NCBI RefSeq assembly: GCF_001306415.1
Contig: NZ_LDJX01000001.1
Span: 310,001-374,000, forward strand
From: Croceitalea dokdonensis DOKDO 023
GTDB taxonomy: Bacteria > Bacteroidota > Bacteroidia > Flavobacteriales > Flavobacteriaceae
Length of the DNA: 64,000 nucleotides
Reading direction: 5' to 3'
Under the pieces are notes generated by a model, which was not told where the DNA came from, did no database searches, and was given only the letters and a program-made list of their open reading frames with translations. Positions 8,454 through 34,838 of the stretch are shown here, piece after piece. Position numbers and translations under genes: made by a program. How positions within the stretch are numbered: position 1 is the stretch's first letter; each line of letters begins with the position of its first letter.

Positions 8454-8467
8454 GTAGATGGATAGGT

Positions 8468-9337: not shown

Positions 9338-9338
9338 A

Positions 9339-10742: not shown

Positions 10743-10744
10743 AT

Positions 10745-11701: not shown

Positions 11702-11758
11702 TTTATTTTGACTGTACCAAAGGTAAAGATTCTGTCCATATATTGAATTCCGATGCTA

Positions 11759-11788: not shown

Positions 11789-11807
11789 AACGCATCAACC
11801 AAAGGGT

Positions 11808-13784: not shown

Positions 13785-13820
13785 TGCGTCACACTTATTT
13801 TCGATACCTTGGGAGCTGCT

Positions 13821-15667: not shown

Positions 15668-16719
15668 CAACAGTCAGAATTTCACAGGTAGCGAAAGCGC
15701 TGCCCAAATACAGTAGGGAAACTGCGGACATCATTCCTTTGGTCAAGTCGTGGTTGGGTGGCCAAGAAGAGCGCTTTCAGCGCAAGGTGGTAAAGATTTT
15801 TGAGGGTGCTGGCGTGGACAAACGGTACAGTATCATGGAACCTATGGAGGTATTTACAGCTACCTCCTTTGAGGATAAGAACAATATTTACGTCCGTGAG
15901 GTCAAACAACTAGGGCAAGATGTTCTTTCCAAAGCCCTTAAAGGCGCAGATTGGAAGGCAGATTCCTTGGATTTTATCATTACCGTTAGCTGCACGGGCA
16001 TCATGATTCCCTCCTTGGATGCCTACCTGATAAACGCCTTGGGATTGCGACAAGATGTGGTTAGGCTTCCCGTGACCGAAATGGGATGTGCCGCCGGGGT
16101 GTCCGGACTTATCTATGCAGCCAATTTTTTAAAAAGCAACCCAAATAAACGTGCCGCGATCATTGCGGTAGAGAGTCCTACTGCCACCTTTCAGCTAGAT
16201 GATTATTCCATGGCAAACATGGTAAGCGCGGCCATTTTTGGCGATGGGGCCTCTTGTGTGCTCTTAAGTTCTGAGGAAGTTGCCCATGGCCCACAAATCT
16301 TGGGTGGGGAAATGTACCATTTTAAGGACGCTACCCACATGATGGGGTTTGACCTTACCAATATGGGGTTAAAAATGATTTTGGACCCTAGTGTTCCAGA
16401 GGTAATCGCAACGCATTTCCCTAGCATCGTACATCCCTTTCTTGAAAAATACGGTTCCAATATTGAAAAAGTAGACCATTTGGTATTTCATCCCGGAGGC
16501 CGAAAAATTGTGCAGACCGTGGAGGAGCTTTTTGGTGCATTGGGAAAGAATATTGATGAAACGCGTAACGTCCTCAAAGCATATGGCAATATGAGCAGTT
16601 GCACCGTGCTCTATGTGCTGGAAAGATTTATGAACAAAGGATTGCAGCAAGGGGAACAAGGGCTTGTGTTAAGTTTTGGCCCTGGATTTTCCGCGCAACG
16701 GGTGCTTATTGAATGGTAA
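15664..16719 (+). CDS. Type III polyketide synthase (chalcone synthase-like)
   Basis: A 351-aa homodimeric ketosynthase that extends a CoA- or ACP-bound starter with malonyl units and cyclises the product. The triad is complete: Cys142 in EMGCAAGVSGL, His276 in VFHPGGRK and Asn309 in AYGNMSSC. The ATG at 15664, which overlaps the methyltransferase stop as ATGA, is preferred to the in-frame ATG at 15631, which would overlap the upstream gene by 37 bases. Because the operon also has its own fatty-acid-synthase parts and ACP, a long-chain acyl starter giving an alkylresorcinol or alkylpyrone is likely; a phloroglucinol synthase is the alternative. Confidence 0.93.
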   Translation: MTTVRISQVAKALPKYSRETADIIPLVKSWLGGQEERFQRKVVKIFEGAGVDKRYSIMEPMEVFTATSFEDKNNIYVREVKQLGQDVLSKALKGADWKADSLDFIITVSCTGIMIPSLDAYLINALGLRQDVVRLPVTEMGCAAGVSGLIYAANFLKSNPNKRAAIIAVESPTATFQLDDYSMANMVSAAIFGDGASCVLLSSEEVAHGPQILGGEMYHFKDATHMMGFDLTNMGLKMILDPSVPEVIATHFPSIVHPFLEKYGSNIEKVDHLVFHPGGRKIVQTVEELFGALGKNIDETRNVLKAYGNMSSCTVLYVLERFMNKGLQQGEQGLVLSFGPGFSAQRVLIEW

Positions 16720-17513
16720 TGGAAGGTAGTAAAGAAAATAAGTGGGCAGTAATTCTCGGTGGTAGTAGCGGGCTCGGGCTTGCAACGGCTAAAAAGCTAA
16801 GTGCCCATGGATATCGATTAATGGTCATTCATAGGGATAGAAGGTCTGATTTGGAGCAAATTGAATCTAATTTTAGAAGTATTGCTTTAAATGGAAATAC
16901 TTTGGTCTCCTTTAATATGGATGCGACTAATCCATCAAAAACCGAAGCCCTTTTACCTAAGATGATAGCCTCTTTAAATGGTGGAAAAATTCACGCGCTG
17001 GTGCACAGTATCGCCAAAGGAAATTTAAAGCCGATGCTGGCGGGAAACGAGGCCGATGCGGTTTTAAAACCAGATGATTTTGCAATCACCATAAATGCCA
17101 TGGCAACTTCCCTGTACCACTGGGTGCAATTGTTGCACCAAAACAAACTGTTCGCGGCCGATACCAGAATTATTGCGTATACCAGTGAGGGCAACCAAAA
17201 AGCATGGCCCAATTATGGGGCCGTTTCTGCCGCTAAGGCTGCATTGGAGGCCATTATGAGGAATATTGCTCTAGAGTTCGCCTCGGTGGGCATAACGGCC
17301 AATTGCATACAGGCTGGGGTTACGGAAACCAAATCCTTTGCCATGATTCCAGGACATCAGCAACTAAAGTCCGCTGCGCTACAACGCAATCCCAACCAAC
17401 GTTTAACCGAGCCCCAAGATGTGGCCAATGCAACCTATTTACTCACCAGGCCCGAAGCCAAATGGATTACAGGCACGGTGATCAAAGTGGATGGAGGGGA
17501 AAGTTTACGCTAA
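16719..17513 (+). CDS. FabI-like enoyl-ACP reductase (short-chain dehydrogenase family)
   Basis: A 264-aa SDR protein with the glycine-rich nucleotide loop GGSSGLGLATA near the N-terminus. The active site has the FabI spacing, Tyr-x6-Lys (PNYGAVSAAKAAL), not the Tyr-x3-Lys of ordinary ketoreductases, and LVHSIAKG matches the FabI VHSIGF region. The C-terminus (VTETKSFAMIPG, ITGTVIKVDGG) fits both groups. It therefore probably reduces the enoyl intermediate made by the adjacent dehydratase. The ATG at 16719 overlaps the PKS stop codon as TAATG; ATG at 16713 is the alternative. Confidence 0.78.
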   Translation: MEGSKENKWAVILGGSSGLGLATAKKLSAHGYRLMVIHRDRRSDLEQIESNFRSIALNGNTLVSFNMDATNPSKTEALLPKMIASLNGGKIHALVHSIAKGNLKPMLAGNEADAVLKPDDFAITINAMATSLYHWVQLLHQNKLFAADTRIIAYTSEGNQKAWPNYGAVSAAKAALEAIMRNIALEFASVGITANCIQAGVTETKSFAMIPGHQQLKSAALQRNPNQRLTEPQDVANATYLLTRPEAKWITGTVIKVDGGESLR

Positions 17514-17956
17514 TGGATGTACAACGGATTTTAAGCAAATTGCCTTACCAAGAGCCTTTTTTGTTCGTGGATGGGATTTCACGGGTATCGGACGACGATG
17601 TGGAAGGGCACTACACCTTTAAAAAAGAGTCCGCTTTTTACCAAGGACATTTTAAGGATTACCCCGTGACCCCAGGGGTTTTATTGACGGAGTGTTGCGC
17701 CCAAATTGGTTTGGTCTGTCTGGGAATTCACCTGTTATCGCAACACCTTACGGAAAAAATGGAAGTCGCTATGACCAGCAGCGAAATGGAATTTTTAAAG
17801 CCCGTGTTTCCTGGGGAAACGATAAAAGTCCAGGCAGAAAAACGCTATTTTAGGTTTCAAAAGCTCAAATGTACTGTGAAGATGTATGATGCTTCGGGGG
17901 ATATGGTCTGCCACGGCACCTTGGCTGGAATGATAAAAACAACAGGTCATGACTAG
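17513..17956 (+). CDS. FabZ-like 3-hydroxyacyl-ACP dehydratase
   Basis: A 147-aa hot-dog-fold protein. The active-site histidine lies in the typical YQGHFKDYPVTPGVLLTECC segment (about residues 43-62); LPYQEPFLFVDG at the N-terminus is also diagnostic. The ATG at 17513 overlaps the TAA of the reductase gene; a longer in-frame extension upstream is a shadow of that gene. It ends inside the start of the ketosynthase gene (8-base overlap), so synthesis of the chain-building enzymes is coupled. Confidence 0.9.
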   Translation: MDVQRILSKLPYQEPFLFVDGISRVSDDDVEGHYTFKKESAFYQGHFKDYPVTPGVLLTECCAQIGLVCLGIHLLSQHLTEKMEVAMTSSEMEFLKPVFPGETIKVQAEKRYFRFQKLKCTVKMYDASGDMVCHGTLAGMIKTTGHD

Positions 17957-19220
17957 GGTGGTCATCACAGGTTTAGGTGTTTGCTCCCCAAACGGGACCA
18001 ATTTGGAGTCTTTTGAACAGGCCTTAATTTCTGGTACAAGCGGTATCCGTTTTCAACCGCAACTACGCAAACTAAAATTTTCATGCCAAATAGCTGGTAA
18101 TCCACATATTGAAAATATTAACTTAAATACATACTTTACTAAAGTACAGCAACGTGGATTAAACTCCAGCGGCCTCGTGTACGGTATGATCGCAGGACAG
18201 GATGCTTGGCGGCATGCGGGCATGTTGCCTGCTTCTGCGGAGAAGCCCGATTGGGACAGTGGGGTGGTGTTTGGAACGGGCATTTTGGGTGTGGACAAAT
18301 TCAGGGAGGCCATCCATAGGATAGATGAAGGTGAAACTAGACGGTTAGGGAGCAGTTCGGTCATACAGACCATGGCAAGCGGCATCAGTGCATATCTGGG
18401 CGGAACCTTAGGGCTTGGCAATCAGGTCACCACCAATTCCTCTGCCTGTACCACTGGCACGGAATCCCTTATCATGGGTTTTGAACGTATTCGCTCTGGA
18501 AGGGCAAAACGAATGCTAGTGGGCAGCTGTAGTGATAGCGGACCCTATGTTTGGGGCGGTTTTGATGCCATGCGCATCCTGCCAAGCACCTATAATGAAA
18601 GACCTACCGAGGCAAGCAGGCCCATGAGTGCCAGTGCTGCCGGATTTGTGCCCGGAAGTGGGGCAGGGGCACTGGTTTTGGAATCCTTGGAAAGCGCATT
18701 GGAGCGTGGCGCCCCTATTTATGGAGAGGTAAAAGGGGGCGCCATCAATAGTGGCGGCCAACGTGGCGATGGCAGTATGACCGCTCCCAATAGCGAGGCC
18801 GTGCAACACTGTATCCGCATGGCTTTAAAGGATGCGGGGGTGTCCGGGACGGAATTGGATGCTATTAACGGGCATCTAACTGCCACAACCAAAGATAGTT
18901 TAGAGGTGTTGAATTGGACCAAAGCTTTAGGTATTGCTGGCAGTGATTTCCCGCTGATAAACTCCTTTAAAGGACATGTGGGGCATTGCCTTGCCGCAGC
19001 GGGCAGCATTGAATGTGTGGCTACCGTGATGCAACTTTACAGGCAAATGGTTTTTGGGAATGTGAACTGTGGGGACATACATCCAGAAATCCTGTCGCTT
19101 ATTGATGCCGAATGTATCCCCACAAAAAGTAGGGAAACCCCACTCCAAACCATCGCAAAGGCAAGTTTTGGTTTTGGAGATGTCAACGCCTGTGTTATTT
19201 TTAGCCAATATATTGCATAA
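17949..19220 (+). CDS. FabF-like beta-ketoacyl-ACP synthase
   Basis: A 423-aa condensing enzyme of the KAS II type. The nucleophile is Cys167 (SSACTTGTESL) and the two histidines are His309 (NGHLTATTKDS) and His346 (FKGHVGHCLAAAG), completing the Cys-His-His triad. The operon therefore carries a private elongation cycle (KS, dehydratase, enoyl reductase, ACP) beside the type III PKS; a dedicated 3-ketoacyl reductase is not obvious and may come from the housekeeping pathway. Confidence 0.92.
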   Translation: MTRVVITGLGVCSPNGTNLESFEQALISGTSGIRFQPQLRKLKFSCQIAGNPHIENINLNTYFTKVQQRGLNSSGLVYGMIAGQDAWRHAGMLPASAEKPDWDSGVVFGTGILGVDKFREAIHRIDEGETRRLGSSSVIQTMASGISAYLGGTLGLGNQVTTNSSACTTGTESLIMGFERIRSGRAKRMLVGSCSDSGPYVWGGFDAMRILPSTYNERPTEASRPMSASAAGFVPGSGAGALVLESLESALERGAPIYGEVKGGAINSGGQRGDGSMTAPNSEAVQHCIRMALKDAGVSGTELDAINGHLTATTKDSLEVLNWTKALGIAGSDFPLINSFKGHVGHCLAAAGSIECVATVMQLYRQMVFGNVNCGDIHPEILSLIDAECIPTKSRETPLQTIAKASFGFGDVNACVIFSQYIA

Positions 19221-23498: not shown

Positions 23499-24215
23499 TC
23501 ATTTAGATAGTTGTCTTAGTAAAGTTCTGCAATCTGACTTATATATTTCTTTGAAGACTTCATTATAAGGATTTTTCATTTTCTCCCCCTTATCAATTAA
23601 TTCTAGTGCCTTCTTTAAACTAAATATTGCTTCTATCCTATGCCCAGTTTTTATATAGAATTTGCCCAAATAGAAATAAGCTTCAGCAAACTGATTATTA
23701 ATATCAATACATTTCAACAAATCATCGATGACAGATTCATTTTTTAAATTCAAACCTATAATTGCTCTATATAAATAATAAGTCGCCAGTTCGGAATTTT
23801 GTTGAATTGCAATATTGATTTTTGACGAAGCAAGTTGCGACTTTCCTATCGAATAATATGAAATAGCCAATAGACAATTAATATTTTGACCCCAAGCGAA
23901 CATTTTTTTTGGAGAAATGTTTTGTAATTCTTCCAAATCTCTAATACAACCTAAATAGTCCTTAAATTTCATTAATCTTAACCAACCTCTATAACCTAAG
24001 TGCATTTTAGGATTGAGCTCAACGGCTTTATTTAGTAACGCAAACCCTTTGGAGTAATCTCCTCGTTTATTATATGGCACCGACTTTTCAAAATAGGAAT
24101 AAGAAAAGGTATTATCAGATTGAATAGATAAATCAAAACAATATTGAGACTCCTGAGAACCTTGACGTAAAGATCTCCCTAATTTATAAAATTTAAGAGC
24201 ATCTTTTCTATTCAT
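23499..24215 (-). CDS. Tetratricopeptide-repeat protein
   Basis: A 238-aa protein made of TPR-like helical hairpins (for example AEAYFYLGKFYIKTGHRIEA around residue 182). No signal peptide and no catalytic domain. It is closely similar to the upstream TPR gene (both contain YFEKSV...NKRG and HLGYRGWL), so they are tandem paralogues; the two reading frames overlap by 8 bases. AT-rich codon use marks it as part of the island. Confidence 0.75.
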   Translation of the reverse strand: MNRKDALKFYKLGRSLRQGSQESQYCFDLSIQSDNTFSYSYFEKSVPYNKRGDYSKGFALLNKAVELNPKMHLGYRGWLRLMKFKDYLGCIRDLEELQNISPKKMFAWGQNINCLLAISYYSIGKSQLASSKINIAIQQNSELATYYLYRAIIGLNLKNESVIDDLLKCIDINNQFAEAYFYLGKFYIKTGHRIEAIFSLKKALELIDKGEKMKNPYNEVFKEIYKSDCRTLLRQLSK

Positions 24216-25020
24216 CTAGTGAACTAATTTCCTTTAGGATATCTGCCAGATAAAGTTCATTAGGAATCTCGTTATAAAAATCCTTTATCTTCCTTCCTTT
24301 TTCAAATAGTTGCTTTGATTTTCTAAAAGAAATTAATGAACTGTCAAATTGCTTAAGGTTCTTGAGCACTATACCTTTTTGGTAAAAAGCCTCGGCAGAA
24401 CTATTGGAAGTGTGATTCAAACAAACATTTAAATTATCTAGTGCATACTCATTGTCACCGAGTTCTTTTAGGGCAATTCCTTTATGTAAAAACAGTTTTG
24501 GGTCAATCCATGAGGAATCTGATTCTGTTATAATATTTTTATTAAACTCAATAATAGCTTCTTTGTATTGTCCTAGACCATTATACGAAAGACCCTTTAA
24601 GTAATAAATATTCTCCCCCCACGGGGCATCAATAACATTTGGGGTCAAAGCATCTAACCTTTTAAAGTCTAATAGAGCTCCTCTAAAATCTTTTAATTTA
24701 TAAAGCTTAAGCCATCCTCGATAGCCCAAATGAGCTTCTGGATTAATTTCAACAGCCTTGTTTAGTAAATAAAAACCTTCTGCATATTCTCCTCGCTTAT
24801 TGAATGCAACAGACTTTTCAAAATATGCATCTGAATATGCGGGGTATTGAAAAATGAGAGTTTTAAAGAGTTGTTGGGAAAGAAATAACCCCTGTTTTTT
24901 TTCGGCGAATGAAAAACGCAGCTCTTTAGAGGTAAAAAAAAATAAATACACAAAAATCACAATTGCTAAAACAATAGTGGAAGTCATTACTATTTTGACA
25001 ACTAAAAAAATTTTTTTCAT
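24208..25020 (-). CDS. Membrane-anchored tetratricopeptide-repeat protein
   Basis: A 270-aa protein with one N-terminal membrane helix (about residues 7-30) followed by TPR-like repeats (YFEKSVAFNKRGEYAEGF, GLSYNGLGQYKEAIIEFNK, EAFYQKGIVLKNLKQ). It is paralogous to the next gene and lies 1 base after the TonB-like gene, in the four-gene unit led by the aldo/keto reductase. Likely a scaffold on the periplasmic or cytoplasmic face; its link to the peptide pathway is only positional. Confidence 0.75.
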   Translation of the reverse strand: MKKIFLVVKIVMTSTIVLAIVIFVYLFFFTSKELRFSFAEKKQGLFLSQQLFKTLIFQYPAYSDAYFEKSVAFNKRGEYAEGFYLLNKAVEINPEAHLGYRGWLKLYKLKDFRGALLDFKRLDALTPNVIDAPWGENIYYLKGLSYNGLGQYKEAIIEFNKNIITESDSSWIDPKLFLHKGIALKELGDNEYALDNLNVCLNHTSNSSAEAFYQKGIVLKNLKQFDSSLISFRKSKQLFEKGRKIKDFYNEIPNELYLADILKEISSLDE

Positions 25021-25021
25021 T

Positions 25022-25531
25022 TTAAAAAATATCGGTTATATGGCCATTTTCAATCTTAAAGTTAATTTGATAGTAACTATCGACAGGTGTACCGTCATTT
25101 AAAACTCCTGGCATCCATTTTTTTAACCCTCTTACTACTTTCTCTAACATTTTAATATCCGATAATGGAAATTCATTTTTTTGTAAATCGGCGTTCACAG
25201 ATTTAAATCTAAATCTATCTGTTTTGCCCTTGCAGTTTACTAGGAATCGAAATGTCAAATACCCTCCTTTTCCTTCAAATGAAAGATTAATATCCTTTAT
25301 GTTGTTAAAAATTTCTTCTCGCATAGCTTTGCGCTCTCCGATGTAACTTGTGCCTACCGAATAATATTGAAAAACCCTATTTTCGTCACATACTTCAAAA
25401 GTAGGGTCATCGATTTGTGAATCAAAATTAATATCTCCGACATTGTTTTTCATTTGATGATTTACCCATAAAATTAAAACTATCAATATAACAAATATTC
25501 CTATAAAAATTATGTTTGAGGTTTTCTTCAC
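25022..25531 (-). CDS. Membrane-anchored protein with TonB C-terminal-like domain
   Basis: A 169-aa protein with a single N-terminal membrane helix (IIFIGIFVILIVLILWV) and a C-terminal TonB-like region whose hallmark is WMPGVLNDGTPVDSYYQINF (compare W-xPG-x-nGxpV). The proline-rich spacer of true TonB is missing, so energy transduction is uncertain. It overlaps the end of the aldo/keto reductase gene by 4 bases. Confidence 0.65.
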   Translation of the reverse strand: MKKTSNIIFIGIFVILIVLILWVNHQMKNNVGDINFDSQIDDPTFEVCDENRVFQYYSVGTSYIGERKAMREEIFNNIKDINLSFEGKGGYLTFRFLVNCKGKTDRFRFKSVNADLQKNEFPLSDIKMLEKVVRGLKKWMPGVLNDGTPVDSYYQINFKIENGHITDIF

Positions 25532-26754
25532 AATAGAGGAGATAAATTATCGATATAAATTTTCTTTCGCATTCCCACTAGCACATGATTAATGCCTTGA
25601 TTTAAATAATTCTCGCAGGAAATTAATGAAATATTCCTTTTATCATTTTGATCAATTTCTCCCTTTAGCTTTAATGAATCCATCAAACCTTTACTTCTTT
25701 CAGAAATTGATTTTTTAGAATATAGCTGCCAATAATTTAATAACTCACTCATTATTTTTTGAACGTCATTACTATTAAATTGAAGTTGATTAACGAATGG
25801 TCTTAGATAAGTGTTAAAAGCCTTATTCACAGCTTCTGGGTTTGCTATGCCTTTTCTATTTTCAACAAAAAATTTTATTGGAGCAAAATCTTTAGCTTTG
25901 GAACTCTCGCCATATTTAAGAAGTTGTTCGTCTATTCTACTAAGAAAATCATCAAATAAAACTTCTTCTTTCCTAAAGTCAATTTTTGAATATTCATCCA
26001 TATAATCTGCTAAACGTAAAACCTTCCCTTGATAAGTTGTATTTAAAGGTCTATTGCTAAATGTTATTAGATTATTTTTTTTGCAAAAATCAATTAAAGA
26101 AGTACCCATATCTTTTTTTCTTGAGGCACTAGTTTCAACTAAATTGTAAGGGAATTGTAGTAATCTGAAATTTGGCAAATAATTACTTTTGTTTACTATT
26201 TTTTCTATATCAATATTACCTTTAGGTATTTCATTTGAACTGATGCCGTAATAACCTATCAAACCATCATCAACCATTTTTTCTAAAAAGGAGCAGGCTT
26301 CCAATAAATGGTCATATATAAATTTCTGATTTTGATTTTCAACATCAAAATAATGTTCGGGATTATGAATAAGAAAGCCATCAATATAGCTAGTATTTAA
26401 TCTTTTAAGTGAAGCTGTCAATTGAGCCCTCAAAAACTTTGGCTCAATACTGTATAGAAAATTGTCCCGGACTTTAATTGTCCATGGAGTATTTAGTATT
26501 TTTGAAAACTCAGTAATATCAGCCCCATTTATATAACCCGCTTTGGTAATAATGAATACATTTTGTCTAGTGTTACTATCTAAAACTTTTCCAATGAGCC
26601 TTTCAGAATCTCCAAATTGATAGTTAGATGCTGTATCAATTAAATTGACTCCCTTCTCAATGGCATAATTCAATGAACTAAAATGACTTGGGTCATTTTC
26701 TGACATTCTATAAGTTCCGATACCAAGTTTCGATAAATTTCTTACATCAATCAT
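25528..26754 (-). CDS. Aldo/keto reductase
   Basis: A 408-aa (beta/alpha)8 NADPH-dependent oxidoreductase, longer than the usual 300-330 aa because of a C-terminal extension. The catalytic tetrad is complete: Asp40 and Tyr45 (LIDTASNYQFGDSE), Lys71 (IITKAGY) and His130 (FLIHNPEHY). It diverges from precursor peptide 1 with only 56 bases between, so a shared regulatory region is likely. A role in modifying the peptide, or in making a precursor of a modification, is inferred from position. Confidence 0.9.
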   Translation of the reverse strand: MIDVRNLSKLGIGTYRMSENDPSHFSSLNYAIEKGVNLIDTASNYQFGDSERLIGKVLDSNTRQNVFIITKAGYINGADITEFSKILNTPWTIKVRDNFLYSIEPKFLRAQLTASLKRLNTSYIDGFLIHNPEHYFDVENQNQKFIYDHLLEACSFLEKMVDDGLIGYYGISSNEIPKGNIDIEKIVNKSNYLPNFRLLQFPYNLVETSASRKKDMGTSLIDFCKKNNLITFSNRPLNTTYQGKVLRLADYMDEYSKIDFRKEEVLFDDFLSRIDEQLLKYGESSKAKDFAPIKFFVENRKGIANPEAVNKAFNTYLRPFVNQLQFNSNDVQKIMSELLNYWQLYSKKSISERSKGLMDSLKLKGEIDQNDKRNISLISCENYLNQGINHVLVGMRKKIYIDNLSPLL

Positions 26755-26810
26755 ATAAGTTTTTATATATTGGTGTGGTAATTTAATATTAACTAATAAA
26801 TATACGAAAG

Positions 26811-26984
26811 ATGAAGAGATTAAATTTAGATGCTTTTAAAGCACAATTAAGCAAAAATCAGACAAATGAGCTAGAAGGTCTAACAGGTGGTATTATGGGC
26901 GCTTGTCACTGCTGTGTTGACGGTCATCACAGACCAGGTAATTGTGATGCGAATACAAGCGGTAAAGAAGCCGTTAGGTCGTAG
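26811..26984 (+). CDS. RiPP precursor peptide 1 with double-glycine leader (57 aa)
   Basis: Found by reading the DNA. The leader (residues 1-27) opens MKRLNLDAFK and ends LEGLTGG, the pattern of Bacteroidetes natural-product precursors cleaved by C39 peptidases. The 30-residue core begins IMGACHCCVDGHHRPGNC, with Cys32, Cys34, Cys35 and Cys45 and three histidines, and ends EAVRS. Precursor 2 at 31752 shares the leader pattern and the I-M/L-G-A-C-H-C core opening. A hairpin terminator follows directly, then the exporter gene, so the peptide is probably made in excess. Confidence 0.85.
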   Translation: MKRLNLDAFKAQLSKNQTNELEGLTGGIMGACHCCVDGHHRPGNCDANTSGKEAVRS

Positions 26985-27011
26985 GTATAGTTAAAACTTT
27001 AATTTTAAATA

Positions 27012-27038
27012 AAAGCATTATAATTAATGCTTTTTTTA
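27012..27038 (+). terminator. Hairpin terminator/attenuator after precursor 1
   Basis: AAAGCATTA (27012-27020) pairs with TAATGCTTT (27024-27032), followed by a run of T. It lies between precursor 1 and the exporter, allowing partial read-through. Confidence 0.6.
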
Positions 27039-27051
27039 ATGCCTTTACTGT

Positions 27052-29265
27052 TTGTTTAAAAAAATCGAAAAATTCCCTTTCTACAAACAATACGATCGTA
27101 CAGATTGCGGTCCAACTTGTTTAAGAATGATTGCTAAATATTACGGCAAAACTTACTCTGCTGAATATTTAAGAACTGTTTGCCATTTAACCCATGAAGG
27201 GGTTTCAGTAGCTGGAATAACAGAAGGGGCTGAGGTCATAGGTCTTAAAACCTTACCTGTTAATGTTACTTGGGAAGCTCTTGAAGAACAAGTTCCATTA
27301 CCATGTATTGCTCACTGGAGACAACGTCATTTTCTAATTGTTTATAAAGTAGGAAATGAAAAGGTTTACGTCGCTGATCCAGATTATGGTCTAATAACGT
27401 ATTCTAAAGAGGATTTTTTAGAAGGATGGCAAAATACAAAATACCTCAATAATTCTAATGAAGGGTTATTGGTTTTACTTGAACCTACCCCTAAATTTCA
27501 TGACGCTGAGCCTATAACCCAAAAGAACAAAGGGTTCAAAACTTTAGTCCCCTACCTAAGACCATATCGAAAATACATTGTTCAGCTTTTCATAGGATTA
27601 TTGGTGGGAAGTATAATCCAATTGATTTTGCCTTTTTTGACCCAATCCGTTGTAGATAAAGGCATCAATTATAGAGACCTTAATTTCATACACATTATAT
27701 TAATCGCTCAACTAACTCTTTTCTTATCTCAAGCTGGAGTCAGCATTATAAGAAGTTGGCTATTGTTAATCGTAGGGGCAAGAATAAATATTTCACTTGC
27801 TTCAGATTTTTTAATAAAAATGATGAAGCTGCCAATTCATTTTTTCGATTCGAAAATTACCGGCGATGTACTTCAAAGAATGCAAGATTCTAGTCGAATT
27901 GAGACATTTCTTACTTCATCACCTAACACACTTTTCTCAGTTTTCAATATGATAATATTTCTCGGAATATTATTATACTATAACTACATTATATTCTTAA
28001 TTTTTTTAGCGGGGGCTACGTTATATATCTTATGGATATTAGTTTTCATGAAAAAAAGAGAACAATTAGAATATAAACGATTTGACCAGGCATCCGGCAA
28101 CTCAAGTAGTTTGATTCAAATAGTTAATGGCATTCAGGAAATTAAAATAAATAATTCTGAAAAAAGAAGAAGATGGGATTGGGAAGAAATAAGAATTCGA
28201 TTATATAAAATTTCATTAGAAGGCCTAAAGCTTTCTCAATTACAGGGTATAGGTGCTAGTTCAATTAATGAGCTTAAAAATATATTCATTTCATATGTAG
28301 CAGCATTATCTGTGATTAATGGCGAAATGACGTTAGGAATGATGTTGGCCGTACAATATATCATTGGTCAACTAAATGCTCCGCTCGTAAGCTTAGTTAG
28401 TTTTTTCGCACAAGCACAAGACGCCAAAATAAGTCTTGAGAGAATGAATGAGGTTCACTTAGAAAAAAATGAAGATGAAGAGGATTTCTATCAAGAAGAA
28501 TTCAATGCCAAACAGAATATTATTTTTAAAGATGTTTCATTTCGATATGGAGGCCAAAAATCGCCATTGGTTTTAAAGAAAATAAATTTAACCATACCTC
28601 ATAATGGCGTTACAGCTATAGTTGGAGAAAGTGGAAGTGGTAAAACCACTCTGTTACGATTATTACTTAAGCTTTATAATCCAACTGAAGGTAAAATAAT
28701 GTTAGGTAATTCTAATTTGAATAATATTTCATCTTCAAAATGGCGAGATTTATGTGGAGTAGTAATGCAAGATGGATATATTTTTACTGATACTATAGCT
28801 CGAAACATAACAGAATCTACATCGGAAGGAATTATAGATAAGACCAAACTTATTAAGTCCGTTCAGATAGCGAATATTGAGGATATGATTGAAAGATTAC
28901 CAGCGGGTTACAATACAAGAATTGGGCCACCAGGATCCAGCGGGGCTAACTTAAGTGGGGGTCAACGGCAGCGAGTTTTAATAGCAAGAGCGGTATACAA
29001 ATCCCCAGAATTTCTGTTTTTCGATGAAGCCACCAGTGCCTTAGATTCGAATAATGAAAAAAAAATAATGGGTAATCTGGATGATTATATGAAAGAGAGA
29101 ACTGCAATAGTAATTGCACATAGGCTTAGTACTGTTAAAAATGCTGATCAAATTGTTGTAATAGATAATGGAGAAATTGTAGAGATTGGAAAACACAATG
29201 ATTTAATTGAGAAACAGGGCTTTTATTTTCGATTAGTAAAAAATCAGTTAGAACTCGGTAAGTAG
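27052..29265 (+). CDS. Peptidase-containing ABC transporter (C39 bacteriocin exporter)
   Basis: A 737-aa PCAT that removes double-glycine leaders and exports the core. Residues 1-130: C39 cysteine protease with Cys19 (TDCGPTC), His93 (RQRHFLIVY) and Asp109 (VADPDYG). Residues about 160-440: ABC membrane domain with several helices. Residues about 480-737: nucleotide-binding domain with Walker A GESGSGKTT, signature LSGGQRQR and Walker B FLFFDEATSALD. The start is a TTG; a stop codon lies five codons upstream, no ATG is available, and the N-terminus (FPFYKQYDRTDCG) is full length. It lies between the two precursor genes. Confidence 0.95.
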   Translation: MFKKIEKFPFYKQYDRTDCGPTCLRMIAKYYGKTYSAEYLRTVCHLTHEGVSVAGITEGAEVIGLKTLPVNVTWEALEEQVPLPCIAHWRQRHFLIVYKVGNEKVYVADPDYGLITYSKEDFLEGWQNTKYLNNSNEGLLVLLEPTPKFHDAEPITQKNKGFKTLVPYLRPYRKYIVQLFIGLLVGSIIQLILPFLTQSVVDKGINYRDLNFIHIILIAQLTLFLSQAGVSIIRSWLLLIVGARINISLASDFLIKMMKLPIHFFDSKITGDVLQRMQDSSRIETFLTSSPNTLFSVFNMIIFLGILLYYNYIIFLIFLAGATLYILWILVFMKKREQLEYKRFDQASGNSSSLIQIVNGIQEIKINNSEKRRRWDWEEIRIRLYKISLEGLKLSQLQGIGASSINELKNIFISYVAALSVINGEMTLGMMLAVQYIIGQLNAPLVSLVSFFAQAQDAKISLERMNEVHLEKNEDEEDFYQEEFNAKQNIIFKDVSFRYGGQKSPLVLKKINLTIPHNGVTAIVGESGSGKTTLLRLLLKLYNPTEGKIMLGNSNLNNISSSKWRDLCGVVMQDGYIFTDTIARNITESTSEGIIDKTKLIKSVQIANIEDMIERLPAGYNTRIGPPGSSGANLSGGQRQRVLIARAVYKSPEFLFFDEATSALDSNNEKKIMGNLDDYMKERTAIVIAHRLSTVKNADQIVVIDNGEIVEIGKHNDLIEKQGFYFRLVKNQLELGK

Positions 29266-30555
29266 ATGAAAAAAATAGATTTTTTAGATGAGCGAAGCGA
29301 TTTCGTAAAAGAAGTTTTGGAAAGTCCCCCAAATACGATAATAAGCTGGGGAAACACTTTTTTTTTAATTTTTATTTTACTAATTCTTTTGCTCAGTTGG
29401 TTTATCAAGTATCCAGATATTGTTATATCTGAAGTTGTTATTACAACAGACAACCCACCTATTTATTTAGCAACAAAGACGGAAGGCAAGATTGACTCTA
29501 TATTCAAATCCAACAAAGAGTATGCAAAAAAAAATGAATGGCTAGCTGTAATAGGAAGCAATGCAAATATTAAGCATATTAAAACGTTGGATAGTATTAT
29601 AAAAGAGATTAAGGCAATTAATTATGATTTAGAAGAAATGCATGATATTGATTTGCCTATTTTAGATGTAGGAGAAATGCAATCAAACTACAATAGCTTA
29701 GTAAAAGCGGTCTTGAAATTTAAGCACCATGAAAATGACGGAAATTTTAATACACAATCACAATTAAACGAGTTAAGGATTAGTCAATACAACAGTCTTA
29801 TTAATGGAGCTATAAGAGACAAACAAATATCAGAAAAAGAATTAGAGGTTGCTAAAACAGATTTGAATAGAAATAAAAGATTGCTTGATAAAGGTGTAAT
29901 TGCGCAATTAGAATATGAGTCCAAAGAACTAAGGTATTTACAAGCTATAAAAACAGTTGAAAGTAATACATCTAGGATAATTCAAATACGCGCTCAAAAA
30001 GCTTCTCTTTTGAGCCAAGGAAGCAATATGAAACATAGTGAAGGTGAAAGTCATTTAAATTCAGAACTTGATATTTTAGAAGCTATAAAACTAACTGAAT
30101 TATCTTACGCAGAATGGATTAAAAAACATGCACTAGTTAGCACAGTATCTGGAGAAGTTAACTTTTTAAATTATTTCACAAATAACCAGTATGTTGGACC
30201 TTCAGAGAAATTAATTTCAATTATTCCAAAATACAACGAGCAAGATTATTTTGGAATCGCCAAAATGCCAATTATAAACTCAGGTAAAGTTAAACTAGGG
30301 CAAACAGCTAACATTAAATTATTAGGATTCCCTGAAAATGAATATGGTATGTTATTAGGTGAAATAACTAATATTTCTGATGTACCCAATGAAGACTTTT
30401 ATTTAGTTAAAATAAATCTTAATAAAGGTCTAAATACAACATTTAATAAAGAACTAACATTTAAGCAAAATATAAAAGGTAATGCAGAAATCATTACAGA
30501 AGATTTACGTTTAATTGAACGTTTTGTATATACGTTAACAAAAGCCTTTAATTAA
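29266..30555 (+). CDS. HlyD-family membrane fusion protein (exporter partner)
   Basis: A 429-aa periplasmic adaptor. One membrane helix (about residues 30-48) follows a short cytoplasmic end; then a barrel/lipoyl region, a long coiled coil (about 85-275, e.g. SEKELEVAKTDLNRNKRLL), and a C-terminal beta-barrel (VKLGQTANIKLLGFPENEYG). Its ATG follows the exporter stop with no gap. It links the PCAT to an outer-membrane channel, which must be encoded elsewhere. Confidence 0.9.
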   Translation: MKKIDFLDERSDFVKEVLESPPNTIISWGNTFFLIFILLILLLSWFIKYPDIVISEVVITTDNPPIYLATKTEGKIDSIFKSNKEYAKKNEWLAVIGSNANIKHIKTLDSIIKEIKAINYDLEEMHDIDLPILDVGEMQSNYNSLVKAVLKFKHHENDGNFNTQSQLNELRISQYNSLINGAIRDKQISEKELEVAKTDLNRNKRLLDKGVIAQLEYESKELRYLQAIKTVESNTSRIIQIRAQKASLLSQGSNMKHSEGESHLNSELDILEAIKLTELSYAEWIKKHALVSTVSGEVNFLNYFTNNQYVGPSEKLISIIPKYNEQDYFGIAKMPIINSGKVKLGQTANIKLLGFPENEYGMLLGEITNISDVPNEDFYLVKINLNKGLNTTFNKELTFKQNIKGNAEIITEDLRLIERFVYTLTKAFN

Positions 30556-30558
30556 AAA

Positions 30559-31704
30559 ATGGATTTTTTTACTCAATACCACGACCACCACTTAAAACTT
30601 ATCGATACATTAAAAACGGTTTTGTATCAAAAAGATAATTCTATTTTTGATAAACTAGACTTTTATGATGATGTGATTTTTTCCGAACCTTTGCTATTTG
30701 CTTGTATAAACAATAAATACGAGGAATGGATTGATATCTTAATTTTTAGCCTCACTAAAAATAAGTCTGAAACTTATACTCAGAATATTAATAATAAACT
30801 CATTTATTTACCAACCATAGGGTATCTTAAGCTTAAGAGGGAATACTCAAAAATAATACAAATTATGTATGCTAATAATAGCATTCAATTAATGGGTGAT
30901 GATAATGAGCTTCTTGAATATGAATTACAGCCATTGATTAAAAATAAAGATGGTATTGAATTTTTACAATGTAATCACCCTCTTTTAGAACCTTTGTTTG
31001 TTAATGAACAAGGAAAAATTACAGAAGTTATAATAAATGAAAAACTATATCTTAAACATATTGAGCATTTTAATAATGCATTAGAAATTATCAGCCAAGT
31101 ATATCCTGAATATTATGACCTTGTTAAACTATATATTAAAAAAGTTGTTTTCTATCAAGGAGAAGCTAATTCATTTGCAACGATACAAGCACATGGTATT
31201 GCTTTCTTCAACGTTAAAGATGATTATAACGAAATTTTCTTTTTAGATAACATAGTGCATCAATGTGCTCATGTATTTTTTAATGCTTTAACATTAGATA
31301 AAAAAGACTTATTCACATTACCTTATAACTCAGACTTATCTTTATTTACAGATGAAGAAAATGATAAAGGGTTCGTGCTTTATGATCGTTTTCACGGTTT
31401 GTTTACACAAACGAATATTAACATTTGCCTTGAAAGATGTATCCAAAAAGAGATTTTTTGGAAAGATAAAAATTATGAATTATTAGGTCGCTTTACAAGT
31501 AATATGAATCGCTTTAAGTCTGCAATAATTAAGTTTGATAGGCCAAATAAATACAAAAAACAAGGTTTGATTTTTTTCAATTTTTTTAAATCTGTTTACA
31601 CGAAAATTTATAAAAGTAATTTTGAAGTGTTAAATTTATATGATGTATCTAATCAACCCTACGTGTTTGATTATAAAATTTTTAAAAAAACTAATTCGTT
31701 ATAA
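30559..31704 (+). CDS. HExxH-family-like putative peptide-modifying protein (HQxxH variant)
   Basis: A 381-aa soluble protein 3 bases after the HlyD gene. The central region resembles the RiPP-associated HExxH family: a His-x3-His pair in DNIVHQCAHVFFNAL (His234, His238) and, further on, a conserved-looking RFHGLFTQTNIN (His279). The first Glu of HExxH is Gln here. Recent work shows that some members are 2-oxoglutarate/iron hydroxylases using the two histidines as ligands and not proteases, so loss of Glu need not destroy function. Residues 1-150 have no recognised match. Assignment by motif only. Confidence 0.55.
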   Translation: MDFFTQYHDHHLKLIDTLKTVLYQKDNSIFDKLDFYDDVIFSEPLLFACINNKYEEWIDILIFSLTKNKSETYTQNINNKLIYLPTIGYLKLKREYSKIIQIMYANNSIQLMGDDNELLEYELQPLIKNKDGIEFLQCNHPLLEPLFVNEQGKITEVIINEKLYLKHIEHFNNALEIISQVYPEYYDLVKLYIKKVVFYQGEANSFATIQAHGIAFFNVKDDYNEIFFLDNIVHQCAHVFFNALTLDKKDLFTLPYNSDLSLFTDEENDKGFVLYDRFHGLFTQTNINICLERCIQKEIFWKDKNYELLGRFTSNMNRFKSAIIKFDRPNKYKKQGLIFFNFFKSVYTKIYKSNFEVLNLYDVSNQPYVFDYKIFKKTNSL

Positions 31705-31751
31705 AAAAATTCTTATTTTTAGGATAAATCATAATAATTAAAATTTTTACT

Positions 31752-31943
31752 ATGAGTAGATTAAATTTAGAAGCTTTCAAAGAAAAAGCAAACGTAAACC
31801 AAGAATTAGAATCATTAACGGGGGGTATTTTAGGAGCTTGTCATTGTACATGGACACCAACAGCTGCGACTCGTCCTGGTTTGGCTTCTTCTATTTCAGA
31901 TTACATTCATTATGCAATGTGCGATGAACATGATATGCAATAA
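31752..31943 (+). CDS. RiPP precursor peptide 2 with double-glycine leader (63 aa)
   Basis: The leader (residues 1-25, MSRLNLEAFK ... SLTGG) is homologous to that of precursor 1. The core opens ILGACHCTWTPTAATRPG, sharing I-x-G-A-C-H-C with precursor 1, then diverges completely (SSISDYIHYAMCDEHDMQ), with Cys30, Cys32 and Cys57. The shared motif marks the likely modification site. TATTTTTA at 31714-31721 may serve as its own -7 element. Confidence 0.85.
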   Translation: MSRLNLEAFKEKANVNQELESLTGGILGACHCTWTPTAATRPGLASSISDYIHYAMCDEHDMQ

Positions 31944-31962
31944 GACGTTTATATTAAGGATT

Positions 31963-31997
31963 AAAGGATGTTCCACTTTTGAAGCATCCTTTTTTTA
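31963..31997 (+). terminator. Hairpin terminator/attenuator after precursor 2
   Basis: AAAGGATG (31963-31970) pairs with CATCCTTT (31985-31992), followed by a run of T. It repeats the arrangement seen after precursor 1. Confidence 0.65.
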
Positions 31998-32018
31998 TGA
32001 TTTTTTACTAAAAAGTTA

Positions 32019-32813
32019 ATGAAGCAAAATATTTTCCCCAACAATATAATTCAGGCTCTTTTCTATACAGTATTATGCTTTTTAGTTATAACTGTATTAA
32101 TTTTGGTTCTTGGACAGTTTTTTTTGAATCAAAATTATGTAATACTATTCTCAGAATTGATTGGATTTCCAATTGTTTTGTTTTTTTCATGGTATTTTTT
32201 GGGTTACCAAGTTGGTGATGTCTTCGGAGAAACAAAGCTATTCCCGAGACTTGTTATACCAATTATATTATTGACAATAAGCATTTACTTGCTACAAGCA
32301 ATACCGACATATTTCCTGCTAGCAGGTCCCGAGAATTATTCTATTCAAATTTTAAGTTTTCACTATGACTGGTCTGTGCTAATTTCAATTTTTTTCACAG
32401 CTTCAATTTTTGAAGAACTTGTTTATAGAGATTTTTTATTTCGCAGACTTCTTTCAACCAAATCATTTTGGTTTTCGGCTATACTATCAAGTTTTCTTTT
32501 TTCGTTATCACATTTAAATTTTGATAATTTCATTAATTTATTCATTTTGGGAATATTCATTTCTTTTGTTTTTTACAAAACAAAAAGCCTTCTTTTATGT
32601 TTCATAATACACATAGTATATGGCCTTGGTCCATTATTTTTAAAATTTTACTATGATAAACAACAAATAGACAAAGTTTTGAGTATTTCTTTGATTTATG
32701 GTGAAAACTCCAATGTCGTGTTTTTTGTTTTATTATTGATTATGATTTTAGGGGTTATATTTGTTCATAACAGCTTGTATAAAACAAAAAATATAAGTCA
32801 TGAAAACAGGTGA
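32019..32813 (+). CDS. CPBP-family intramembrane protease
   Basis: A 264-aa membrane protein with about eight hydrophobic segments and the CPBP/CAAX-type motifs: EELVYR (EExxxR) after residue 129, and a later histidine segment LSHLNFDNF. Such proteins often accompany bacteriocin loci, where they give immunity or process the peptide. It overlaps the start of the CmoA-like gene by 14 bases, so they are cotranslated. Confidence 0.88.
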   Translation: MKQNIFPNNIIQALFYTVLCFLVITVLILVLGQFFLNQNYVILFSELIGFPIVLFFSWYFLGYQVGDVFGETKLFPRLVIPIILLTISIYLLQAIPTYFLLAGPENYSIQILSFHYDWSVLISIFFTASIFEELVYRDFLFRRLLSTKSFWFSAILSSFLFSLSHLNFDNFINLFILGIFISFVFYKTKSLLLCFIIHIVYGLGPLFLKFYYDKQQIDKVLSISLIYGENSNVVFFVLLLIMILGVIFVHNSLYKTKNISHENR

Positions 32814-33507
32814 TAAGATTTCAACACTAAATGCTAATTGGTCTTTTTCAGGAGATGTTCCAAAAAATTTTGATAACCATGTTTCAAAGTCAGTTCCTTT
32901 GTATGTTGAAGGGCATGACTTAATCTGTAGATTAAGTGATTTTTTTATTTCAGACAAATCTAAATGCTATGAGATAGGAAGTAGTACTGGTGAATTGACA
33001 AAAAAAATAGCTCTTCACAATAATCATAAAGAAATAAAAGTTACAGGTATTGAGCCAATACATGAGATGGTTGAGGTTGCAAGTCAAAAGTGTAAAGAAA
33101 ATTCTAATATTTCGTTTTTAACGGAGGATATTCTTAATGTAGAATTGGAAAAATCAGATTTAATCGTGTCTTATTATACAATACAGTTCATTAAACCAAG
33201 GGTTAGACAATTGGTTTTTAATAAAATCTATGAATCTCTCAATTGGGGTGGTGCATTTATTTTATTTGAAAAAGTAAGAGCATGTGATGCACGTTTCCAA
33301 GATATTATGACTGCTTTATACACTGATTATAAATTAGAACAAGGGTATAACGAAAAAGAAATTCTATCTAAAACTAGAAGTCTTAAAGGAGTACTAGAAC
33401 CTTTTTCAACACAAGGTAATTTAGACTTACTAAAAAGAGCAGGTTTTGTTGATATAACATCCGTTATGAAGTACGTGTCTTTTGAAGGTTTTTTAGCGAT
33501 TAAATAA
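32800..33507 (+). CDS. CmoA-like protein, putative carboxy-S-adenosylmethionine synthase
   Basis: A 235-aa class I methyltransferase fold that tracks E. coli CmoA along its length: FDNHVSKSVPLY near residue 24, glycine loop YEIGSSTGELTKKI (57-70), YYTIQFIKPRVRQLVFNKIY (125-144), LNWGGAFILFEK, then GYNEKEI and KTRSLKGV (182-198) and a final GFxAIK. CmoA turns SAM and prephenate into carboxy-SAM for tRNA carboxymethylation. An arginine (Arg193) lies one position from where CmoA has the arginine that holds the carboxylate, so the activity needs testing; an ordinary methyltransferase is the alternative. Its position in a RiPP operon is unusual. Confidence 0.72.
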   Translation: MKTGDKISTLNANWSFSGDVPKNFDNHVSKSVPLYVEGHDLICRLSDFFISDKSKCYEIGSSTGELTKKIALHNNHKEIKVTGIEPIHEMVEVASQKCKENSNISFLTEDILNVELEKSDLIVSYYTIQFIKPRVRQLVFNKIYESLNWGGAFILFEKVRACDARFQDIMTALYTDYKLEQGYNEKEILSKTRSLKGVLEPFSTQGNLDLLKRAGFVDITSVMKYVSFEGFLAIK

Positions 33508-33515
33508 AGTCAAAA

Positions 33516-34838
33516 ATGTTTACGAAAAAACCTATCATCCATAATGAGGTTCAAATTTTAATTGATGAGAGTGAATTAGAATCTTATTATGCAGAGTCAT
33601 ATTTCTTGTACAAAAGCCACTTAAAGTACTTAATTAGAAAACTTAATACTTTTAAATTAGGTCTCGCTCAAGGTAAGAGAGAAAAATATTTTCAACTTCT
33701 TACTGATTCTTATATTCGAAACATCCATAACGTTAATAATATTGTATCAGTTCTTGAACCTAAAGTTACCTTAGAAGCTTATGAAAATCTTCAAATAAAT
33801 ACTACTGACAATACGCAAACAACACTTAAAGATTTTATTTACCTGAGAAGAGATTGGTGTTTCAAAAGTGAACCTGAGCAACAATTAAAAACAACCATTG
33901 ATTCACTAAAAATAGAATTATCAAAGATAGAATTTGAAACAGGGAATGCCTTATTTATTGGATGCGGAGTTGGAAGAATAGCTTTTGAATTTACTGATAT
34001 TTATAGTAAAGTTTATGCCACTGACAAGTCTTTTTCAATGATTTGGCACCTTCAAAAACTCTTGAACGGTAAGACTATTGATTTTTATAGCCCGCACGAA
34101 AAAAACGTAAAAACATTACAAAATGTAGCACCCCGATATTCGGCTAAAATTCCAAAGGATAAGCTAAATAATATACTTGATAAGTTTGAAGTATTTGTTT
34201 CAGATGTACTTGATCTTCCTTTCAAGGATAATTCACTCAATTCTGTTTTTTCGATTTACTTTACAGATGTTATTGCATTAAAACTTTGGTTTAATCAAAT
34301 TAATCAAAAACTTAAAAACAAAGGCTTGTTTGTTCATTTTGGTCCGCTCGACTACTTTTTTTCTAACGAACAAGAAATGTATACCGCTGAAGAATTTAAA
34401 CAATTCTTTGAAAATAACGGGTACAAGACTTTAATAGATAAAACTATTGAAACTACTCATTTGGAAGATAGTAATTCAATATCCTACAAAGTATACAGAA
34501 ATTGGTTTTTTGTTGCTCAAAAGAATATTAGTTCAAACTCAACTACATTCGAGATTTTTGATGAGACTATTCTAAAGCTTAGAACTCCGGTTTCATACAA
34601 GAGAGAGGGAATTTTAGATGATGGTGAAAAGGAATTAGAGGCTACCTTAAATCTTCCCAATGGCACTTTTACCGGGGCTGATGCTGTTATTCAAATATTG
34701 AAGTTATTAGATGGAAAAACACCTTATATTGAAGTTCTATCTAAGCTACAAAGCAATGGATTTGATGTTAATGATACAAAGGGTATACATGATTTGCTTT
34801 TAGATCTTCTAAAACAAAATGTTTTAAAAATTTGCTAG
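33516..34838 (+). CDS. N2227/carnosine-methyltransferase-like enzyme with PqqD-like C-terminal domain
   Basis: A 440-aa protein. Residues about 104-335 resemble the carnosine N-methyltransferase (N2227) family: LKDFIYLRRDW (104-114), glycine loop LFIGCGVGRIAFEF (146-159), YATDKSFSMIWHLQ, and the diagnostic LFVHFGPLDYFF (271-282; compare NLGPLLYHF). That family methylates a histidine imidazole. Residues about 345-440 resemble PqqD/RiPP recognition elements (FTGADAVIQILKLLDGKTP, then a helical tail), which bind leaders. Lying 8 bases after the CmoA-like gene, it may transfer a methyl or carboxymethyl group to the Cys-His-Cys motif of the precursors. Last gene of the operon. Confidence 0.7.
   Translation: MFTKKPIIHNEVQILIDESELESYYAESYFLYKSHLKYLIRKLNTFKLGLAQGKREKYFQLLTDSYIRNIHNVNNIVSVLEPKVTLEAYENLQINTTDNTQTTLKDFIYLRRDWCFKSEPEQQLKTTIDSLKIELSKIEFETGNALFIGCGVGRIAFEFTDIYSKVYATDKSFSMIWHLQKLLNGKTIDFYSPHEKNVKTLQNVAPRYSAKIPKDKLNNILDKFEVFVSDVLDLPFKDNSLNSVFSIYFTDVIALKLWFNQINQKLKNKGLFVHFGPLDYFFSNEQEMYTAEEFKQFFENNGYKTLIDKTIETTHLEDSNSISYKVYRNWFFVAQKNISSNSTTFEIFDETILKLRTPVSYKREGILDDGEKELEATLNLPNGTFTGADAVIQILKLLDGKTPYIEVLSKLQSNGFDVNDTKGIHDLLLDLLKQNVLKIC

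Follow-up and report, generated by a model that had tools for sequence, protein, structure and literature searches.

The window analysed here, a stretch of 64,000 nucleotides from the genome of Croceitalea dokdonensis DOKDO 023 (Bacteroidota; 3.88 Mb in 16 contigs; positions 310001–374000 of contig 1), carries a compact gene cluster that most likely makes small secreted peptides starting with a modified Cys-His pair. Its central genes encode two precursor peptides with double-glycine (GG) leaders, a C39 peptidase/ABC exporter, an HlyD-type adaptor, an HExxH-like protein, a CmoA-like protein, an N2227-type methyltransferase and an aldo/keto reductase (AKR) (Table 1). In a preliminary description of this DNA the genes had been proposed to form a pathway for a ribosomally synthesised and post-translationally modified peptide (RiPP), a proposal that homologous loci lacking precursors would have contradicted. 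Genome searches, for which the description had suggested cmoA-like and N2227-type genes beside C39 exporters, gave eight Bacteroidota loci including the window, and short leader-bearing precursor genes were found in or beside the operon in every one of them (at least one per locus, 8/8). A RiPP-type pathway is the best reading of the cluster because of its leader-type precursors, its C39 peptidase-exporter, a domain resembling a RiPP recognition element (RRE), an oxygenase fold known from RiPPs and the precursors in all homologous loci. Two further features emerged from the present analysis, namely an invariant GG-x4-Cys-His motif and the behaviour of the CmoA-like, N2227 and AKR genes as a single module.

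In the proposed pathway, the RRE-like tail of the N2227 protein would first bind the leader, after which the HExxH oxygenase would oxidise the Cys-His pair, most likely at the beta-carbon of the His. The CmoA-like protein would make carboxy-S-adenosylmethionine (carboxy-SAM) from S-adenosylmethionine (SAM) and prephenate, and the N2227 protein paired with it would transfer carboxymethyl to the imidazole ring of that His, or a plain methyl group should the CmoA-like protein make no carboxy-SAM. The AKR might then adjust the oxidation state, and the C39-ABC exporter with HlyD would cut after the GG and export the peptide, so that the mature product would start x-x-x-x-Cys-His right after the cleavage site and end in a freely varying tail. 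Every chemical step is read from the genes present, their co-conservation, the motif and the predicted folds, and for the pathway as a whole, that is (carboxy)methylation and oxidation of the invariant Cys-His, probably at the His, we consider the case evenly balanced. Its more specific form, in which carboxy-SAM from a phage-type CmoA would allow the N2227 enzyme to place a carboxymethyl group on a His (or Cys) side chain also oxidised by the HExxH oxygenase, is put forward as plausible and tentative.

The invariant Cys-His of the precursors

The core begins with GG-x4-Cys-His in all 22 precursors examined (the two of the window and 20 others), and those of the window read IMGACHCC and ILGACHCT directly after LTGG. 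For the 16 precursors that come from the eight loci, pairwise identity averages 0.53 over the leader, 0.85 over the x4 stretch separating GG from Cys, 1.0 for the Cys-His pair and 0.09 over the tail. The precursors have no family match in Pfam or NCBIfam; those of the eight loci were picked by BLAST to the window proteins or by short sequence motifs such as LTGG, GGI and GACH, a procedure that a precursor with neither feature would escape, and for related clusters and lone precursors the small open reading frames (ORFs) with any GG were listed.

A search with a model of the leader gave 20 matches in 16 of 395 genomes, although the model itself contains CH, making this a weak control. Eleven matches had E values of at most 1.1e-9. 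Ten of these are intact precursors or the precursor of a decayed locus (L058), all with GG-x4-CH, and the other (L080, genome G297) is interrupted by a stop within the matched part and was not counted as a precursor. The nine remaining matches had E values of 0.006–0.05, and four of them were examined (L069, L071, L075 and L077). L071 (positions 1393–1629, E 0.009) encodes a GG-leader precursor of another kind, Cys/Gly-rich after the GG and with no CH, so that the CH does not merely come with a leader of this type. In L075 a chance-looking GGDLGNCH was found in a small ORF. Two lone precursors, L082 (G297) and L083 (G206), have no cluster within 20 kb; L082 is perhaps a remnant.

The HExxH-like protein and its association with Cys-His

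The HExxH-like protein has no relevant family in Pfam or, for eight members at E≤10, in NCBIfam, and its sole match in a profile search of the PDB is to the unrelated 3ggy (E 0.058). An AlphaFold2 model (pLDDT 87, pTM 0.88) was compared with the PDB using Foldseek, which returned five chains at E≤0.001, namely SjiH (22ob, identified by its PDB title alone; E 3.5e-7) and four chains of ChlB-HExxH (8s5f; chain A with E 6.0e-6, probability 1.00, TM 0.52/0.57 and rmsd 9.6). Because the rmsd values are large (6–11 Å), this kinship lies at the level of the fold. Two motif histidines and a third His 43–47 residues after the first (H234, H238 and H279 in the window, a spacing of 45) are kept in 11 of 11 homologues. 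The protein had been described as HExxH-like from the letters; the protein is there, but the literal motif is not, since the window has HQCAH, with Gln in place of Glu, and of the 11 proteins seven have Gln and four have Glu at the second motif position. Zincin-type peptidases need the Glu of this motif. A role as a protease was therefore disfavoured, hydrolysis being unlikely where the peptidase-type Glu is Gln in 7/11, and the oxygenase fold points the same way. On the strength of the model, the protein is a probable alpha-ketoglutarate/Fe oxygenase. The HExxH enzyme of ChlB is reported to hydroxylate His and Asp (PMC12636437), and other members of the alpha-ketoglutarate-HExxH family are reported to hydroxylate Gln, Phe and Pro (PMC12636437, PMC13060819). 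From this published His/Asp activity and the invariance of the motif, we infer that the Cys-His pair, and most likely its His, is the target of the oxygenase.

Profile searches with the HExxH family found it in 5 of 395 genomes of the order and in 4 of 395 of the phylum (one a fragment). Three related clusters are intact and contain C39, HlyD and HExxH genes. Their precursors read GGDFSECH (L052), GGIMEACH (L053, which also has a ThiF-family gene) and GGLMADCH (L057, positions 4394–14558); L057 has LanB and LanC on the other strand and is a possible lanthipeptide/HExxH hybrid. A fourth locus (L058, positions 8838–10824) is decayed, with its precursor (GGTENACH) kept, fragments of HExxH and HlyD, and no C39 exporter matched. 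There was no match to the AKR, CmoA-like or N2227 proteins of the window in any of these four loci within the 20 kb read (BLAST E≤1e-3). Each of the intact clusters (11/11) has both the HExxH gene and Cys-His, while the AKR, CmoA-like and N2227 genes are either all present (eight) or all absent (three). As L052, L053 and L057 have HExxH and GG-x4-CH without these three genes, it is the HExxH protein that tracks with Cys-His, and the other three behave as an all-or-none module. The loci being related, this co-occurrence is a pattern and not a probability.

Conservation of the gene set in eight loci

Relatives of the N2227 protein were sought in 395 genomes of the order and found in three, that of C. 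dokdonensis included, and a scan of a named genome collection gave six relatives among 31 candidate stretches. The eight loci are those of the window, of G206 (L004/L005), of Cellulophaga omnivescoria (L007), of an uncultured Tenacibaculum (L008), of Chryseobacterium ISL-6 (L009), of Moheibacter lacus (L010), of Chryseobacterium MYb7 (L011, the genes of which match those of G103/L006) and of Chryseobacterium RU37D (L012). AKR, C39-ABC, HlyD, HExxH, CmoA-like and N2227 genes, with one to four precursors, are kept in all eight; in L007, L009 and L010 the stretch ends within the AKR gene. The CmoA-like gene adjoins the N2227 gene throughout (8/8), and its product is the more conserved of the two (67–82% identical to that of the window, against 47–63% for N2227). 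In the AKR, PF00248 covers residues 9–267, with a C-terminal extension beyond, and residues D40, Y45, K71 and H130, which we take to be the catalytic tetrad, are kept in 8/8 loci, three of the sequences being incomplete.

Other genes are less widely shared. The CPBP gene is found in the window, L007 and L008. The Cellulophaga cluster (L007, positions 7093–9243) also encodes a protein of 716 aa in which about 220 N-terminal residues precede a tryptophan-halogenase domain; peptide halogenation is a possible role for it. A flippase-like protein is encoded in L009, and a 485-aa ORF is similarly placed in L011; L012 has a DUF6734 gene, and a similar-looking gene was seen by eye in G206. A mobile origin was also considered and rejected, with no N2227 relatives in the plasmid collection and neither N2227 nor CmoA-like proteins among the pattern matches in viral contigs.

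The N2227 methyltransferase and its C-terminal tail

The N2227 domain matches PF07942 (E 7.1e-15, 55.5 bits against a cut-off of 27) and, below the cut-off, ovoA_Cterm (TIGR04345, E 4.5e-9, 36.2 bits against 170), the 4-mercaptohistidine N1-methyltransferase domain of OvoA. A profile match was also obtained to the carnosine N-methyltransferase of PDB 5yf0 (E 4.8e-6), and both of these relatives methylate imidazole. For the tail behind this domain, Pfam gave no match in the window or L007, and in L008 a weak one to Lant_dehydr_N (E 0.028); PqqD was tried by sequence and gave no match. Using a model of modest quality (pLDDT 69), Foldseek ranked the PqqD structure 5sxy second (E 0.01) and also returned TbiB1 (5v1v), PbtF (8t19) and TruD (4bs9), the four having probabilities of 0.93–1.00 and E values of 0.01–0.14, together with other RREs at such E values or weaker. 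On this model the tail is provisionally taken as an RRE. Leader recognition must lie elsewhere in five of the loci, as their N2227 proteins are without an RRE-like tail.

The CmoA-like protein and positions 199 and 203

The CmoA-like protein is a relative of CmoA (PDB 4gek, E 4.8e-26) and, from its sequence, a candidate carboxy-SAM synthase. A housekeeping role in tRNA modification was rejected for its own genome, where there is no CmoB over the cut-off; the only other match there to the CmoA profile is weak (E 4.6e-4). Matches to TIGR00452 (CmoB) below the cut-off do occur in this genome (E 2.4e-8 over 102 profile positions at 48092–48400 of the window, and E 1.7e-4 on another contig), and similar ones were obtained from all 14 control genomes, with just one over the cut-off. 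When compared to E. coli CmoA, residues Tyr39, Gly64, Ser66, Ile118, Phe137 and Glu164 are kept in 8/8 loci and Asp117 in 7/8, with Asp89 represented by Glu or Asp.

In the E. coli enzyme Arg199 holds the carboxylate through a salt bridge (PMC3663124). The absence of this residue was first read as contrary evidence, and Arg199 was then dropped as a yes/no test of carboxy-SAM synthesis since SpCmoA is also without it. In assays SpCmoA is reported to synthesise carboxy-SAM, its kcat being tenfold that of CmoA from E. coli (PMC12783734). The single CmoA of Synechococcus phage S-B43 adjoins an asparagine-synthase-type gene, as is described for SpCmoA, and is identical to L043. SpCmoA/L043 has Glu199 and Arg203, and all eight CmoA-like proteins here have Thr199 and Lys203. 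To place these residues, 31 CmoA-type proteins were aligned in three MAFFT modes (the eight described here, 16 others, six from phages out of 83 phage records, and that of E. coli). Fifteen have Arg or Lys at 199, all with Glu203, and another 15, including the eight with Lys, have Arg or Lys at 203 and none at 199, so that a basic residue stands at exactly one of the two positions in 30 of 31 proteins, whichever mode was used. All eight CmoA-type proteins neighbouring a CmoB over the cut-off are of the 199 type. If the stretch is helical the two positions lie one turn apart, and a residue at either could thus reach the carboxylate. The 203-type phage proteins L043, L059 and L060 have a DNA cytosine methylase next to them or two genes off (L060 by annotation) and have the pattern K-x-x-x-[LI]-[KR] in common with the CmoA-like protein of the window, and the CmoA of an Erwinia phage (L044), which has a DUF1611 gene as its neighbour, belongs to the 199 type.

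CmoA-type genes were also seen in other settings. In four Bacteroidota genomes (L037:9770–11241, L038:9175–10603, L039:9768–11235 and L041:5551–7016) such a gene, the product of which has Arg199 and no Asn132, adjoins one for a membrane methyltransferase of PEMT/ICMT type, and this pair is a candidate second case of carboxy-SAM use outside tRNA. In L035 (5378–11420) a CmoA-like gene (48% identical to that of the window) is immediately followed by a gene for a small methyltransferase, and the opposite strand has a B12-binding radical SAM gene at a distance of roughly 3 kb. In L036 (3852–9618) a 203-type CmoA-like gene lies beside two membrane proteins (PEMT, E 2.8e-8; the second weak, E 0.011) and two ABC-transporter genes, and a close relative of this CmoA is present in a faecal phage contig (L045).

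Points against the pathway and alternative explanations

A number of observations weigh against the pathway proposed above. The eight loci are related, with CmoA-like proteins 67–82% identical, and counts over them are for this reason not independent. As Cys-His is kept where the CmoA-like/N2227 pair is absent, the motif alone does not show that the pair acts on it, and the intact GG-x4-CH of L082 comes from a genome (G297) for which no HExxH match was reported, giving a case of CH without HExxH. The oxygenase assignment has no sequence-level match to known alpha-ketoglutarate-HExxH models behind it, and its Foldseek matches have the large rmsd given above. For the N2227 tail the best Foldseek match is not an RRE but GdmN (rank 1, E 0.008, and again at lower ranks), with the methyltransferase 8hkr at rank 4 and no match reaching E 0.001; the RRE-like tail is absent from 5/8 loci, and a carboxylate-binding residue was not identified in the N2227 domain. 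The CmoA-like protein scores 149.8 bits with TIGR00740 (E 9.9e-44), below the cut-off of 193.3. Relative to E. coli CmoA, its Asp62 is replaced by Glu and Asn132 by Tyr, Asn90 is variable, and Arg199-Ser200 is Thr-Arg in 8/8 proteins. The 199/203 rule was drawn from the same 31 proteins to which it is applied and is broken by the CmoA of Pseudomonas phage BHU-17, in which neither residue is basic.

The replacement of Arg199 and Asn132 and the low TIGR00740 score would suit the same pathway with the CmoA-like protein as an ordinary SAM methyltransferase or an inactive partner, the N2227 enzyme then putting a simple methyl group on the imidazole of the invariant His, as carnosine N-methyltransferase and OvoA do. 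The precedents in the N2227 family are indeed plain methyl transfers, but the CmoA-like/N2227 pair is adjacent in 8/8 loci, Lys203 fits the class of the proven phage carboxy-SAM synthase, and a carboxy-SAM synthase with a dedicated nearby transferase is a pattern reported from phages and microcin C (PMC12783734, PMC9239234). We regard this explanation as rather unlikely.

The chemistry could otherwise fall on the Cys instead of the His: its sulfur could be carboxymethylated or methylated, or the oxygenase could join Cys and His by a thioether. The relatives of N2227 act on an imidazole nitrogen, and the activity reported for the ChlB HExxH enzyme is on His and Asp (PMC12636437). Although the Cys is as invariant as the His, we judge a Cys target to be improbable. 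Finally, C39 and HlyD alone suffice for bacteriocin export and the CPBP protein could confer immunity, as would be the case if this were a plain bacteriocin locus of the double-glycine kind. Its peptides would then be exported without modification, and the additional enzymes would have a lipid, sugar or small molecule as substrate, which is very hard to reconcile with a strict GG-x4-CH in front of unrelated tails, the RRE-like tail and the RiPP-known oxygenase fold.

Layout of the locus in the window

The nine genes named in the preliminary description at 25528–34838 are all open reading frames at these coordinates, and their families were matched in Pfam or NCBIfam (for HlyD and the CmoA-like protein below the cut-off), apart from the HExxH-like protein, without a relevant family, and the precursors, which have no family match. 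To the left the unit probably reaches about 23499 and takes in a small protein and two tetratricopeptide repeat (TPR) genes with homologues in the sister loci. In keeping with the reported lack of LanB/C/M, YcaO, ATP-grasp and radical SAM enzymes, none of these is among the matches listed for the 10 scanned proteins (Pfam, NCBIfam). Near the cluster in the window (13809–19220) there are genes for an FAD oxidoreductase, a methyltransferase, a chalcone-synthase-type (type III) polyketide synthase, a short-chain dehydrogenase/reductase (SDR), a FabA-like protein and a ketoacyl synthase.

Table 1. Genes and domains of the Cys-His peptide cluster, with positions in the window
Feature	Position	Strand	Basis
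Precursor peptide A, 57 aa, leader ...LEGLTGG, core IMGACHCCVDGHHRPGNCDANTSGKEAVRS	26811..26984	+	ORF; alignment with 15 other precursors, Cys and His invariant
Precursor peptide B, 63 aa, leader ...LESLTGG, core ILGACHCTWTPTAATRPGLASSISDYIHYAMCDEHDMQ	31752..31943	+	ORF; precursor alignment
Aldo/keto reductase (AKR), 408 aa	25528..26754	-	PF00248, E 3.2e-33
C39 peptidase/ABC exporter, 737 aa	27052..29265	+	PF03412, PF00664, PF00005
HlyD-type adaptor, 429 aa	29266..30555	+	TIGR01843, E 2.7e-21, 76 bits, below cut-off of 208.65; no Pfam match
HExxH-like protein, 381 aa, probable alpha-ketoglutarate/Fe oxygenase; H234, H238, H279	30559..31704	+	AlphaFold2 and Foldseek; His conservation
CPBP (Rce1-like) membrane protein, possible immunity or accessory protease	32019..32813	+	PF02517, E 4.5e-18; not in all loci
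CmoA-like protein, 235 aa, candidate carboxy-SAM synthase	32800..33507	+	TIGR00740, E 9.9e-44; PDB 4gek, E 4.8e-26
N2227/carnosine N-methyltransferase-type domain, candidate His (carboxy)methyltransferase	33516..34526	+	PF07942, TIGR04345; PDB 5yf0 profile, E 4.8e-6
PqqD-like/RRE-like C-terminal domain of the N2227 protein	34527..34838	+	Model (pLDDT 69) and Foldseek; in 3/8 loci (window, L007, L008)
Small conserved protein, 169 aa	25022..25531	-	Homologues in sister loci; no confident family
TPR protein	24208..25020	-	Homologues in sister loci
Second TPR protein	23499..24215	-	Homologues in sister loci

Significance and comparison with known systems

The enzyme set had been thought new for a peptide product, and searches of the open-licence literature gave no report that describes such a set of genes, places N2227 enzymes in RiPP loci or has a peptide residue carboxymethylated, although the wording CmoA plus RiPP misses synonyms such as MccS. 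The main text of a review of RiPP methyltransferases does not contain the words histidine, imidazole or carnosine (PMC11285071). Should the pathway be correct, carboxy-SAM chemistry, which is rare and to date known from nucleic acids and nucleotides, would extend to the side chains of peptides, and the carnosine/ovothiol methyltransferase fold would gain a peptide-tailoring branch. GG-x4-CH beside an HExxH-fold protein would serve as a marker in RiPP mining across several tailoring sets (AKR/CmoA-like/N2227, halogenase-type, ThiF and LanB/C), and the 199/203 rule, if true, as a way to recognise from sequence those carboxy-SAM synthases that work outside the modification of tRNA. With a carboxymethyl group in place, a Cys-His-carboxylate head could bind metal and the variable tails could aim it; that such a modified head and variable tail make a bacteriocin-like or metal-binding peptide is speculation.

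Of the known systems, the class I lanthipeptides of Bacteroidota share the C39/HlyD export and the GG leader, but LanB and LanC are not among the matches listed for the 10 scanned proteins of the window, while the related locus L057 has both. RiPPs of the microcin C type resemble the cluster in having a carboxy-SAM synthase (MccS) with a dedicated transferase (a domain of MccB) inside a RiPP locus; the carboxymethyl group goes to cytidine in the system as reported (PMC9239234), whereas the transferase here is of N2227 type and the matches listed for the 10 scanned proteins include no MccB-like family. The CmoA/CmoX pair of Synechococcus phage S-B43, associated with 5-carboxymethylcytosine in DNA, has a CmoA that is likewise basic at 203, with a gene for a C5 DNA methylase two genes further along, but the transferase described there is a DNA cytosine enzyme and its target is DNA (PMC12783734).

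CARNMT1 and the C-terminal domain of OvoA are linked to the N2227 enzyme by PF07942 (over the cut-off), TIGR04345 (below it) and imidazole methylation, and differ in their substrates, which are carnosine, zinc-finger proteins or mercaptohistidine. We know of no RRE-like tail on CARNMT1 or OvoA enzymes. The alpha-ketoglutarate-HExxH oxygenases as described (ChlB-HExxH; BpmH, PflC, PosC and PesO), together with SjiH, have in common with the protein of the window a RiPP context, a His metal motif and, for ChlB-HExxH and SjiH, the fold. They differ from it in that the family found here has no profile match, carries Gln in 7/11 motifs and is partnered by an AKR, a CmoA-like protein and an N2227 methyltransferase.

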